Assembly: GCF_014193425.1 (NCBI RefSeq) | Contig: NZ_JACHZG010000001.1 | Coordinates: 186,001 to 250,000 of the forward strand | Origin: Microlunatus antarcticus | GTDB lineage: Bacteria; Actinomycetota; Actinomycetes; Propionibacteriales; Propionibacteriaceae | DNA length: 64,000 bases | Reading direction: 5' to 3' | In this document: one piece after another, positions 13,222 to 16,946 of the stretch | How the letters are laid out: each line of letters starts with the position of its first letter | Position numbering within the stretch: position 1 is the first letter of the stretch | Made by a program: the position numbers and the translations under genes | The notes under the pieces: model-generated | Seen by the model: only the letters and a program-made list of their open reading frames with translations | Told to the model about the DNA's origin: nothing | Databases searched by the model: none

Positions 13222-13311
13222 GCCTCTACTGTGCGTCGCAACGAAGGGGCCGGGCGGCCGAGCATGGCGCTGAGAATGTTCTGAAGGTCACACTTATCGG
13301 CTGCGAGTGGT

Positions 13312-13391
13312 TCTCGGGGCTGGTTGAGTGCCGGTATCGACACGTCAGGCCTCGGGGGCCAGGGGTGGCGGCGCAGGGAAGAGTCCCGAGA
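13312..13391 (+). other. Possible structured leader upstream of the surface-protein pair
   Basis: TCTCGGG at 13312-13318 is complementary to CCCGAGA at 13385-13391 and would close an 80-base RNA that also contains a GGCC-loop-GGCC hairpin. I could not match it to a known riboswitch (c-di-AMP, c-di-GMP and cobalamin consensus parts are absent). It may be chance. Confidence 0.2.
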
Positions 13392-13407
13392 CGCCGCTGG
13401 TGCTGGT

Positions 13408-14616
13408 GTGCGCCGTTGGGTGCTGCGGGCGGGTCTGGTGCTGGCGGCGGGGGCGGCTGGTCTGTCGTTGTCGGCGGGGGCTGCGCAGGCGGACAGCGGG
13501 TTGAGTGGGACGTTGGGCCATGTGTCCGACACGGTGAAGAAGGTGACCGGTTCCGGTTCCTCGCACTCCTCGTCTTCCCAGTCGTCCCACTCGTCGTCGA
13601 AGTCGTCCAGCTCGTCGAAGTCGTCGCACTCGTTCACGTCGTCCCACCGCTCGTCGGTGAAGGTGTCGACGCAGCGGGTGTCGGTGCGTAAGAGCGTGGT
13701 CCGACCGGTGGTGCGGACCGTGAACCGCGTGGCCAAGCCCGCGGTGCGGGTCGTCCACGTGGAGACGGCGCACGAGAAGCGCGTGGCGAAGCAGGTCGCG
13801 CAGAAGAAGAAGCTGGTCGCGCAGAAGAAGCGGGTCCAGCAGGTCGACCGGGCCGTCACCGACGTGACGAAGACCGTCTTCGGCAGCTCCGCGAAGCCGA
13901 CTAAGGGCTCCCGCACCGCTCCGGCCGCGCTGGTGTCGGTGGACGTGTCGAAGGTGACGACGAAGGCTCTGGCTGACGTGACCTCCACGGTCCTGACCCC
14001 GCGTACGCCGCTCGAGCTGCCGACTGTGACGCTGCCTGACCTGAACGTGGCTGTGACTCTTCCGGCCCTTGACCTGAACGTGGTTGACCTGGCCGTGGTG
14101 GAGCTGCCGTCGGTGGGCGTGAGCGTCGGACTGCCGCAGGTGCAGGTCGACCTGCCTGGTGTCCTCCCCGGCGCCGGTCTGCCTCCCGTGGCGGTGCTGG
14201 CCACGACCGCGCCGCACGCCTCGAGCTCGACGTCAACCGCCGCGGCCTCGGCGTCGTCCGTGCACCCGGCGGCTGCTCCTCTTCTCACGACCCATCTGGT
14301 CCACCCATCGCTTGGACAGTCGGCGGACGGTGCTGCTGCCGTGACGGCGAACCAGGCCGACGGCCGTCGTGTGGTCGCAGCTCACGTCGAGGCCGGGGTG
14401 TCCCTCCTGGCCGCGTACGGCGCCTCGGGTGCCGGTGCGGGGCCGGGTGTCAGCCCGGACGGTTCGGCGGGCGCCGGCGTCTCGGGCCTCATGATCTTCG
14501 GGCTGGCCGTCTCGGCTGGTCTGGCGGGGCTGATGGCGTTGCACGCCCGGCCCGCGCACGCCCGTTCTGGGCACACGCTGGGGCTGCTGCGTCAGCCCGG
14601 CTTCTCTCCCGACTGA
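13408..14616 (+). CDS. Secreted Ser/Lys-rich surface protein with C-terminal membrane helix
   Basis: 402 residues. The signal peptide is cut after AQA at residue 28. A low-complexity Ser/His/Lys tract follows, then a basic stretch rich in Val, Arg and Lys with QKKKLVAQKKRV (short coiled coil), then a beta-prone series of Leu-Pro strands (LPTVTLPDLNVAVTLPALDL and similar), an Ala/Ser linker and a hydrophobic helix (GLMIFGLAVSAGLAGLMAL) with a 24-residue tail. It has no cysteine and no sortase motif. GTG at 13408 is chosen because the signal peptide then matches that of the next gene (same cleavage position, Asp next); TTG at 13324 is the alternative. Codon use (TTG, GGG, GCT, TCG) departs from neighbouring genes. 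Function unknown; probably envelope-associated. Confidence 0.7.
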   Translation: MRRWVLRAGLVLAAGAAGLSLSAGAAQADSGLSGTLGHVSDTVKKVTGSGSSHSSSSQSSHSSSKSSSSSKSSHSFTSSHRSSVKVSTQRVSVRKSVVRPVVRTVNRVAKPAVRVVHVETAHEKRVAKQVAQKKKLVAQKKRVQQVDRAVTDVTKTVFGSSAKPTKGSRTAPAALVSVDVSKVTTKALADVTSTVLTPRTPLELPTVTLPDLNVAVTLPALDLNVVDLAVVELPSVGVSVGLPQVQVDLPGVLPGAGLPPVAVLATTAPHASSSTSTAAASASSVHPAAAPLLTTHLVHPSLGQSADGAAAVTANQADGRRVVAAHVEAGVSLLAAYGASGAGAGPGVSPDGSAGAGVSGLMIFGLAVSAGLAGLMALHARPAHARSGHTLGLLRQPGFSPD

Positions 14617-14751
14617 CGTCTTCTCTCCACCCCCAGGTGCCCACCCTTCGCGGGTCGGCACGGCGCTCCTTGCGCGCCGGTCCCCGGGCCACCCCCGCAC
14701 CCCTCGTGCGGTCGGCCTACCTCCCTGAACTCGTAGAGAGAAGCAACCCCC

Positions 14752-16764
14752 ATGAACGCATGGTTCACCCGTCTGCTCGCCGGAGCAGCCTGCACGGTCG
14801 GCGCCTTGGCGCTGACGACCGGCGCCGCCCACGCCGATGATCACGACGGTGGTCTCGACCTCGGGATCGTGAAGGTCTCGACCCATCACGACAAGTCCTC
14901 CGGCTCGAAGTCGAGCAGCCACAAGTCGTCCAGCTCGAAGTCGCATTCGGGTGGGTTGAAGGTGTCGCTGCGGACGCCGGTGAAGGTCCGCGCCGACGTC
15001 AACCTCGGCTCGCGCCACTCCTCAAACAGCGTCCGCGTCGGCACCGGCGGCGGCTCCGGCTCGCGCAGCAGCAACCAGGTCGCCGTCCGCGTCGGCACCG
15101 GCAACAGCTCCTCGCACCGGTCCACGAGCAGCCGGGCGACGAGCAACCGGACGTACGTCCAGGTCCAGGCCCACGCCCGCGCGGTCAAGGCCGAGCAGAA
15201 GGCGGAACGGGCCAAGCAGGCCAAGGCGAAGGCCAAGGCGGTCAAGGCGGCGAAGGTGAAGGCCGCGAAGGTGAAGGCGGCGAAGGTGAAGGCGGCCCAG
15301 CAGCGTCAGCAGGCTCTCGAGGTGCGGGCTGATGCGGCGCTGCTGAAGGGTCTGATCCCCGCGACCCGGGTCCTGGCCGACGGGCGTGTCCTGGACTTGC
15401 CGGTCCGGGCCTGCGTCCTGGTGAACACCGACGGCTGCGACCGCACCCCCGACCCGACCCACACCGGCACGAACCCGGGCGCCGGCGACACCGGTGGCGG
15501 GCTCGGGTCGAGCCCGCTGCTGACCTCGGTGGTCACCGCCACCGCGACTGACGTCCCCGTCGTCGGCGACCTCGACGCCTGCGCCCTGATCAACGCCACG
15601 GGCTGCACCACGGGCACCGGCACCACCGGCCTTGGCTCTGGGACCAGCAACACCGGGTCGGGCAGCACCGGCTCGGGCAGCACCAGCTCGACGAACGAGC
15701 TAGTCACCGCCATCGTCACCGCCACCGCTGACCTGCCCGTCGTGGGCGACGTGAACGCCTGCGCCCTCATCAACGCCGGCAGCTGCACCACCGGCACCAA
15801 CCCGGGCACCGGCACCAGCCCGGGCACGGGCACCAACCCGGGCACGGGGAACACCGGCTCGAACCCCACCAGCTCGACCAACGAGATCATCACCGCGATC
15901 GTCACCGCCACCGCCGACCTCCCGGTCGTCGGCGACGTGAACGCCTGCGCCCTGGTCAACGCCGCCGGCTGCACCACCACCGGCACCGGCACCAACCCGG
16001 GCACCGGCAACACCGGCTCGACCGGGTCGAACCCGAACACCTCGACCGACCCGATCGTGACCGCGATCGTCACGGCCACCGCCGACCTGCCCATCGTGGG
16101 CGACGTCAACGCCTGCGCGCTCGTCAACGCCACCGGCTGCACCACCGGCACCGGCACCGGCACCGGCTCGAACAACCTGCCGGCGCTGCCGGTGATCGTG
16201 CCGCCGGTCGTGGGTCAGGCCACCGCTGACCTGCCCGTCGTCGGCACCGTCGACGCCTGCCTGCTGATCAACGCCCTCGGCTGCACCAGCGGAACCGGCA
16301 CCACCCCGACCGGGCCCACCGGCCCGGCCGTCCCGATCATCCCGGTCGTCATCGGCGAGGTCGGCACCACCATCCCCGGCGTCGGCGGCGTCGACGCCTG
16401 CGTCCTGATCAACGCCACCGGCTGCACCACCGGAACCCCCACCACCCCCACCACCCCGACGACCCCGACCACGCCCGGCGACGGCAACGGCGGCGACGAC
16501 GGCAACGGCGACAACGGCGGGAACAACGGCGGCGGCAACAACGGCGGGAACCGCAACGGGAACAACGGCAACAGCGGGAACGCCAGCACCGTGTTCCTGA
16601 CCGGCCCGCAGGGCCAGGCCGGCAACGGCCTCGGCGGCAACAACGGCGACGACGACCGGCTCGCTCAGACCGGCGCCGCGGCCGGCCTCGCGGGTCTGCT
16701 CGGCGGGGGACTGCTCCTGCTCATCGGCGGGCTCAGCCTCACCCTGCGCCGCCGTCGCAGCTGA
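14752..16764 (+). CDS. Sortase-anchored surface protein with seven Cys-x7-Cys repeats
   Basis: 670 residues. The signal peptide is cut after AHA at residue 28. It shares with the preceding protein a Ser/Lys/His tract (HKSSSSKSHS) and a Lys/Ala/Val coiled region (KAAKVKAAKVKAAK). From residue 221 a unit like DLPVVGDVNACALINA..C recurs; cysteine pairs start at 221, 277, 337, 399, 455, 503 and 550, always C-x7-C, separated by Thr/Gly/Asn/Pro linkers. A Gly/Asn-rich spacer leads to LAQTG (637-641), a hydrophobic stretch and RRRRS, the layout of a class E sortase substrate. The repeats recall chaplins by their paired Cys and hydrophobic content but differ in motif. The role is probably an adhesive or structural cell-wall protein (inference). 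Confidence 0.8.
   Translation: MNAWFTRLLAGAACTVGALALTTGAAHADDHDGGLDLGIVKVSTHHDKSSGSKSSSHKSSSSKSHSGGLKVSLRTPVKVRADVNLGSRHSSNSVRVGTGGGSGSRSSNQVAVRVGTGNSSSHRSTSSRATSNRTYVQVQAHARAVKAEQKAERAKQAKAKAKAVKAAKVKAAKVKAAKVKAAQQRQQALEVRADAALLKGLIPATRVLADGRVLDLPVRACVLVNTDGCDRTPDPTHTGTNPGAGDTGGGLGSSPLLTSVVTATATDVPVVGDLDACALINATGCTTGTGTTGLGSGTSNTGSGSTGSGSTSSTNELVTAIVTATADLPVVGDVNACALINAGSCTTGTNPGTGTSPGTGTNPGTGNTGSNPTSSTNEIITAIVTATADLPVVGDVNACALVNAAGCTTTGTGTNPGTGNTGSTGSNPNTSTDPIVTAIVTATADLPIVGDVNACALVNATGCTTGTGTGTGSNNLPALPVIVPPVVGQATADLPVVGTVDACLLINALGCTSGTGTTPTGPTGPAVPIIPVVIGEVGTTIPGVGGVDACVLINATGCTTGTPTTPTTPTTPTTPGDGNGGDDGNGDNGGNNGGGNNGGNRNGNNGNSGNASTVFLTGPQGQAGNGLGGNNGDDDRLAQTGAAAGLAGLLGGGLLLLIGGLSLTLRRRRS
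15403..16437 (+). repeat. Cys-x7-Cys repeat region within the surface protein
   Basis: Seven imperfect coding repeats, 47-62 codons apart. The core reads (V/I)VG(D/T)(V/L)(N/D)AC(A/L)L(I/V)NA..C(T/D). The DNA of the middle copies is very similar, including shared GTCGACG/GTGAACGCCTGCGCC stretches, which suggests recent expansion by recombination and possible copy-number variation. Confidence 0.8.
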
Positions 16765-16785
16765 CCACCAGCTGACCACCAAGAA

Positions 16786-16842
16786 CCGGACCCACTAGTC
16801 CGGCCACGAGCAGTCCGGGCACCAGACGCGGGGGCGTCTGGT
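16786..16842. terminator. Two tandem hairpins after the surface-protein gene
   Basis: CCGGAC-CCACTA-GTCCGG at 16786-16803 and a 9-base stem ACCAGACGC-GGGG-GCGTCTGGT at 16821-16842. They sit between convergent genes and could act in both directions. Confidence 0.55.
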
Positions 16843-16920
16843 CCCCGGCACCCACCGCCCGTCGGTCGGTTCGGCGCCCACCCTGTCCTCGGGGGGTGGC
16901 GCGCTGAACCGGCCGACGGG

Positions 16921-16946
16921 CCGTACCCACGCCCGGGGTCGTACGG
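16921..16946 (-). terminator. Weak hairpin after tetR
   Basis: CCGTAC and GTACGG arms, 14-base loop, immediately after the stop of the minus-strand regulator. The stem is short. Confidence 0.3.

Follow-up and report, generated by a model that had tools for sequence, protein, structure and literature searches.

What do two adjacent genes for exported proteins, one of them with a regular array of cysteine pairs and a sortase signal, do for the bacterium that carries them? The genes, here called P1 and P2, lie on the forward strand of a 64,000-nucleotide stretch of the genome of Microlunatus antarcticus (the window; contig NZ_JACHZG010000001.1, positions 186,001 to 250,000, with positions below counted from its first base). 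P1 (13324..14616) comes first and P2 (14752..16764) follows it in the same orientation, 135 bases further on. The pair is real, is duplicated in its host and, so far as detected, is restricted to one lineage; P2 is probably a surface protein of the sortase-anchored type and has a distinctive cysteine-paired repeat. Its function has to be read from sequence, and we would give a probability of about one half that P1 and P2 are an obligate exported surface pair of some Propionibacteriaceae, forming a coat that would alter hydrophobicity or adhesion.

Occurrence of the pair

A sequence-only reading of the window, which had seen the letters and open reading frames of this DNA, proposed that P1 and P2 act together. 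The two genes are conserved together, adjacent and in the same order, with P1 directly upstream of P2, at all six loci found in five genomes and four genomic settings. Besides the host these are two of the 19 other genomes of its genus (G003 and G011) and two of Auraticoccus, G024 and G102, the latter being Auraticoccus cholistanensis F435 (12,771 compared bases identical).

A profile of the full P2 matched in 15 of 391 genomes of the order, and 5 were retained after the loci had been read. No frame read from the 10 discarded loci had more than one cysteine pair, though four were truncated where the locus ended; five of the 10 matches resemble one dehydrogenase family and two have an LADTG end without a cysteine array. 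The P1 profile matched in 7 of the 391, and the same 5 were retained, the remaining loci (L123, L124) being unlike P1. With these two profiles the remaining 386 genomes gave no sign of the pair, though only three to four candidates were scored per genome, so that a divergent pair could be missed. A profile of the window-type unit matched in 3 of 198 genomes of the family, the host included. Among 396 genomes of the phylum, at an expect value (E) of at most 0.05, it found the host and 14 others, each with one weak match (best E 6.7e-5); the two of these that were inspected (L040, L041) read as enzymes and 12 are uninspected. The Auraticoccus-type unit profile matched in 2 of 197 genomes of the family and, in a search without a positive control, in none of 296 of the phylum. 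A wide distribution was rejected, no unit match beyond the five genomes being credited, among those inspected, in the phylum samples of 396 and 296. In a collection of named species no pair was confirmed among the 39 stretches of a first scan, and only that of Auraticoccus cholistanensis among the 499 of a second.

Homology between the pairs of the two genera is argued from several shared features: the order of the genes, the signal peptide of P2, units that each hold one cysteine pair, an LAXTG end in P2 and a P1 tail that closes with PD. Judged from these comparisons the sequence of the pair is changing fast, and a still more diverged pair would escape these searches. The features that are conserved, one cysteine pair per unit and a partner gene upstream, give a handle for finding systems that ordinary similarity searches miss.

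P2 and its cysteine-paired units

P2 has 670 residues from an ATG start. It begins MNAWFTRLLAGAACTV and has a predicted signal peptide of 28 residues (14752..14835) cut between A-x-A and Asp, and the translation continues with a Ser/His/Lys tract (14884..14949). A Lys/Ala/Val coiled stretch had been proposed for both proteins; model support exists for P2, where AlphaFold predicts a helix over residues 135-185 (15154..15306) with low to moderate confidence. The two stretches of P2 make up a basic stalk. The repeat array (15361..16425) consists of seven C-x7-C units, with cysteines at residues 221/229, 277/285, 337/345, 399/407, 455/463, 503/511 and 550/558. Mature P2 has 14 cysteines, every one of them in these pairs, and none of 20,000 residue shuffles of P2 reached seven pairs (maximum 4). 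After the units come a spacer rich in Thr, Pro, Gly and Asn, the sorting motif LAQTG (16660..16674), a hydrophobic helix (16678..16734, by hydropathy; residues 643-669 in the AlphaFold model) and the Arg tail RRRRS. The seven units, the LAQTG and the membrane helix described by the sequence-only reading are thus all borne out, and with signal peptide, LAXTG, hydrophobic helix and basic tail P2 has the sequence features of a class E sortase substrate.

The number of units differs between relatives, from 7 in the window to 6 in the paralogous copy of the host, 4 in G011, 5 in the C-terminal piece of G003 and 8 in G024, and in every one of these all mature cysteines are paired within units. In G024 the units are like LDLCVDAAVLGTAACGG, with cysteines separated by 10 or 11 residues, and the stalk is acidic. 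On the sequences compared, the one-pair-per-unit plan of P2 is persistent while spacing and sequence diverge. The sorting motif reads LAQTG in the window, the paralog and G003, LAHTG in G011, LASTG in G024 and LARTG in G102. The signal peptide of the window form resembles the Auraticoccus form, with Cys14 in the window, G003, G024 and G102 and a Leu in G011.

In the AlphaFold model of P2, a single one built from four input sequences (mean predicted local distance difference test score, pLDDT, 45.3; predicted template modelling score 0.44), every one of the seven units has two strands. The two cysteines are placed alike in all seven, the first at the fourth position of the second strand and the other four residues beyond the end of this strand. 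Confidence is highest in units 3-5, whose best ten-residue blocks have a pLDDT of 79-85, followed by unit 2 (78) and unit 6 (69); in units 1 and 7 the best blocks reach 55-59. The simple reading of this model would be that each unit is a small hydrophobic hairpin with its end clamped by a disulfide.

P1, its start and its leader

P1 contains no cysteine, and its region of Leu/Pro/Val strands (14010..14200) and C-terminal hydrophobic segment are present as the sequence-only reading described them. The segment (14485..14541, residues 388-406) has a Kyte-Doolittle mean of 2.06 over 19 residues and is likely to be a membrane helix. The N-terminal half of P1 is basic and has a Ser/Lys/His tract (13546..13653), and the protein ends in the tail QPGFSPD (14593..14613), which corresponds to PGFAPD in G003 and G011 and to LPTHSPD in Auraticoccus. 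The tails end in PGFSPD, PGFAPD or PTHSPD at all the loci (window, L005, L013, L014, L076, L077), whether a hydrophobic helix or a soluble stretch precedes them.

The start had been placed at the GTG at 13408, which would give 402 residues. This GTG is a GCG in G003, and a TTG at 13324, which would give 430 residues, is common to the window, the paralog and G003; in G003 no other in-frame ATG, GTG or TTG lies between the signal peptide and the stop that precedes it. P1 therefore probably starts at the TTG, though the sole such candidate in G011 is a later GTG and the start stays uncertain. The signal peptides of both proteins had been described as cut at residue 28 before Asp; the A-x-A and Asp sites hold in both, the same site in P1 lying after residue 57 when counted from the TTG.

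In the first 20 codons of P1 (13324..13383) there is 1 synonymous change among the 18 residues common to P1 and that of G003, as against 4 in 17 in codons 21-40 and 80 in 169 in codons 41-396 (Fisher p 0.0007 for the first block against codons 41-396, the block having been picked after the profile was seen). The last block, codons 381-396, is low as well (2 of 12). The first 20 codons are identical in the paralog. So little synonymous change suggests constraint on the nucleotides themselves, and this leader is possibly a cis-regulatory element, a structured leader or an unusual start. Part of it (CTCGGGGG...GTGGCGGC) persists in G011, 5' of the only usable start. No Rfam family was matched in the leader, and a known riboswitch was rejected on that basis. 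The predicted fold is weak, with a z of -2.46 for 169 nucleotides and, for cores of 85-86 nucleotides, of -1.77 in the window, -0.91 in G003 and +0.87 in G011.

Codon use unlike that of the neighbours had been reported for the pair. This is so for P1 (codon distance 0.218) and its paralog (0.205) but not for P2 (0.116), against a background mean of 0.092 and standard deviation of 0.036 from 28 called open reading frames above 250 residues, P2's frame included; one of the 28 exceeds P1, at 0.237. P1 has a distance of 0.081 in G003 and 0.069 in G011. The share of G-ending among G- plus C-ending codons in P1, 0.61, is above that of all 37 called open reading frames of the window (0.20-0.58), and this excess, found in both copies and absent in G003 (0.45) and G011 (0.44), is a lineage-specific shift.

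It is conceivable, though in our view unlikely, that P1 is an assembly or retention factor of P2 rather than part of a coat, holding P2 at the membrane until it is sorted, with its tail (PGFSPD or PTHSPD) as the recognition end. The constant place of P1, first and adjacent at every locus, would suit such a role, as would the near identity of both ends of the two P1 copies in the host, between which residues from about 260 to 380 are strongly different; the tail is also the most recognisable feature that P1 has in common with Auraticoccus. The tail is, however, predicted to be cytosolic in the host genus, where it follows the membrane helix, and extracellular in Auraticoccus, where there is no helix.

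A duplicated cassette

The host assembly (4.37 Mb in 18 contigs, 95.19% complete) contains a second P1-P2 pair on the minus strand of another locus, L005, with identities, where the copies could be matched, of 75% for P1 and 92-95% for P2. By blastn the homology of the two copies spans 13267-16938 (3.7 kb) and takes in 57 bases upstream of P1 and 174 downstream of P2. The upstream edge (13267..13323) holds GCTGAGAATGTTCTGAA, a stretch common to the window, the paralog and G003 that is a candidate promoter or leader. The downstream edge (16765..16938) holds two stable terminator-like hairpins (fold z -7.04 for 16790-16930); these lie in the gap where P2 and a predicted TetR-like gene converge and are duplicated with the cassette. 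From these alignments the pair is duplicated as one self-contained cassette.

The second cassette (L005:6760-10258, with the paralogous P1 at L005:8918-10201) begins about 94 bases past the end of a transfer-messenger RNA (tmRNA) gene (L005 10352-10718, minus strand), and its P2 is one unit shorter, apparently by an in-register deletion. Genes for tmRNA are frequent integration sites, and the position of the paralog had suggested integration at this one. No integrase was seen by eye among the L005 frames of at least 150 residues, no family search having been made on those frames, and neither a search of plasmids with P2 nor one of phages with P1 gave a match. On these three results a mobile element was rejected.

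In G003 the pair is flanked on either side by DNA that matches the flanks in the window, which makes the window locus the probable older position of the pair in the host and G003 species. Such a match of flanks was not found for the loci of G011, G024 or G102.

Would the pair form a coat?

If P1 and P2 do form a coat, each P2 unit would be a hydrophobic beta-hairpin clamped at its end by a disulfide between its own two cysteines, P2 would be joined to the wall by a sortase and the stalk would carry the hairpins outward. P1 is constantly present and has no sorting signal, which suggests a partner nearer the membrane; it may stay at the membrane or wall and support or complete the layer through its basic stalk and its Leu/Pro/Val strands. 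The resulting coat would change surface hydrophobicity or adhesion and would work in the manner of the long chaplins of Streptomyces or CwpA/CwpB of Actinoplanes, with different units. In favour of this reading are the strict pairing of the P2 cysteines, the strands of the model, the hydrophobic unit cores, the constant adjacency of P1, the agreement of the two profiles on five genomes, the duplication as one cassette, the LAXTG end and the likeness of the two stalks within the host genus.

A number of observations weigh against this picture, the first of them concerning hydropathy. The unit cores of P2 are hydrophobic (means of 0.76-1.42) but mature P2 overall is not (-0.13), so that a hydrophobic layer hinges on how the units are displayed; P1, at 0.16, is barely hydrophobic, and the hairpin structure of the units depends on one shallow model. 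An alternative that we hold to be rather doubtful is that P1 and P2 serve in adhesion or aggregation, with the P2 units as ligand-binding loops and not as a hydrophobic layer. Variation in unit number is common in many repeat adhesins, and that of P2, which has 4 to 8 units among relatives and an apparently in-register difference of one unit in the host copies, would fit this, as would the Thr/Gly/Asn/Pro-rich spacers and the overall hydropathy of the mature protein. Against it stand the hydrophobic unit cores and the Pfam search, in which no known ligand-binding domain was found.

Further points that count against a coat come from the relatives. The C-terminal helix of P1, proposed as part of the pair, holds in the host genus but is missing from both Auraticoccus partners. 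The stalks of P1 and P2 are alike in composition in the window (cosine 0.91), the paralog (0.90), G003 (0.95) and G011 (0.98), a likeness within each host-genus genome that is suggestive only, the comparison covering the proteins of the pair. In Auraticoccus the two stalks are not alike (0.63 and 0.67), and those of G003 also resemble the G011 stalks (0.83-0.94) and those of both window-genome copies (0.87-0.90), so the match is not exclusive to partners. The P2 of G003 (L013:6745-8729) is frameshifted and lacks its own stop, its end running past the helix into the neighbouring convergent gene; either P2 is decaying and dispensable there or the sequence contains errors.

The last point is the sortase. 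According to the available text of PMC5148588, class E sortases recognise LAXTG and anchor chaplins. No class E sortase was found in the host assembly. Its two sortases (L096, L103) best match the class F model, both below the NCBIfam cut-off, and a search of the host genome with the class E enzyme of G003 gave one weak match (E 0.005, 28% identity) with an internal stop. Of the 28 sortase loci, 10 were scanned with NCBIfam. The class E enzyme looked for on the strength of the sequence-only reading was not found in the host assembly but is present in all four other genomes with the pair, by NCBIfam in G003, G024 and G102 and by motif only (TLTTCQDLF, L093) in G011. Of the three members of the host genus without a detected pair that were included, G018 has it by NCBIfam and G010 by motif only, and in G002 it was not found, which makes six of the eight genomes searched (four by NCBIfam, two by motif only). 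G002 has a single sortase (L095), with no class E detected. Since G018 and G010 have class E without a detected pair and the host shows the reverse, there is no one-to-one association between the enzyme and the pair. The plainest explanation of the undetected enzyme in the host is that it lies in the missing 5% of the assembly.

It had also been proposed that P1 and P2 were built from a common ancestor. Their local alignment score was reached by 1 of 300 whole-sequence shuffles for the mature N-terminal parts and by 0 of 300 at full length; this control ignores the localised Ser/His/Lys tracts, so the similarity, which may be compositional, is not counted as homology. That the two are ordinary low-complexity exported proteins, alike in composition only and neighbours by chance, is very improbable, since, although both are largely rich in Ser, Thr, Gly, Ala and Lys and their similarity is mostly compositional, their adjacency at six loci in four settings, the duplication of the cassette and the strict pairing of the cysteines stand against it.

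The surface coat is the reading that we prefer. Tentatively, and with appreciably less confidence than we place in the coat as such, we suggest that it may be a two-component coat of the Propionibacteriaceae that is independent of chaplins, with P2 as an anchored row of disulfide-clamped hairpins and P1 as a dedicated partner whose stalk changes with that of P2, both kept and duplicated on a single relocatable cassette that has a leader and a terminator of its own. If this were true, chaplin-type surface layers would have arisen more than once in actinobacteria, cysteine-paired hairpins being one solution, and the Propionibacteriaceae would be a further family with its own version of a surface layer.

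Comparison with known systems

The sequence-only reading had expected a motif different from that of chaplins. The unit, P2 and P1 gave no credible match in the families tested. Window P1 (in its 402-residue form) and P2 had no Pfam match at E up to 1. The Pfam chaplin family was not matched at E up to 0.1 by four P2 relatives or six P1 members; among these, one of the six P1 members matched the histone-like HC2 at 0.028, and one of the four P2 relatives matched Gram_pos_anchor at 0.028, below the cut-off. NCBIfam, searched with the window pair, gave MinC at 0.18, which is not credible. Against the sequences of the PDB, the unit profile gave one chance match (E 2.7), the P2 profile an inulosucrase at 0.038 confined to the low-complexity C-terminal part and the P1 profile nothing at E up to 0.1. 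Membership of P1 or P2 in the chaplins or another known family was rejected on these searches. A description of the pair was not found in the open-licence PMC literature, in which oxidative protein folding of the MdbA type is described for actinobacteria.

Wall-anchored LPXTG/LAXTG repeat proteins in general have a stalk, a repeat array, a spacer and a sorting signal, and P2 is built in the same way. It differs from them in its tiny units with one cysteine pair each, in having no known domain and in the companion gene present at every locus found.

CwpA and CwpB of Actinoplanes missouriensis are sortase-anchored, as P2 probably is, and share with it the lack of chaplin domains, the restriction to a lineage and a proposed role in surface hydrophobicity (PMC13251363, available text). 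The mature cysteines of CwpA are given there at 44, 146, 213 and 292, which is not C-x7-C, and the word 'repeat' is absent from the main text of that paper. According to the same text, hydrophobic proteins of Actinoplanes that are anchored by sortase and are not chaplins are important for development and for the spreading of colonies, and they are proposed to make the surface hydrophobic. This makes a surface coat plausible for P1 and P2.

Chaplins are defined in the same text as having two cysteines and three GN motifs spaced 12-13 residues apart. GN is absent from all seven window units, each taken with the 25 residues that precede its first cysteine and the 4 that follow its second. The long chaplins ChpA-C of Streptomyces resemble P2 in being exported, in their LAXTG-type signal with helix and basic tail and in their hydrophobic units that bear cysteines. 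P2, in contrast, has one short C-x7-C pair per unit, 4-8 units where ChpA-C have two domains and no match to the Pfam chaplin family, and the pair is set apart from ChpA-C by a constant partner gene upstream.

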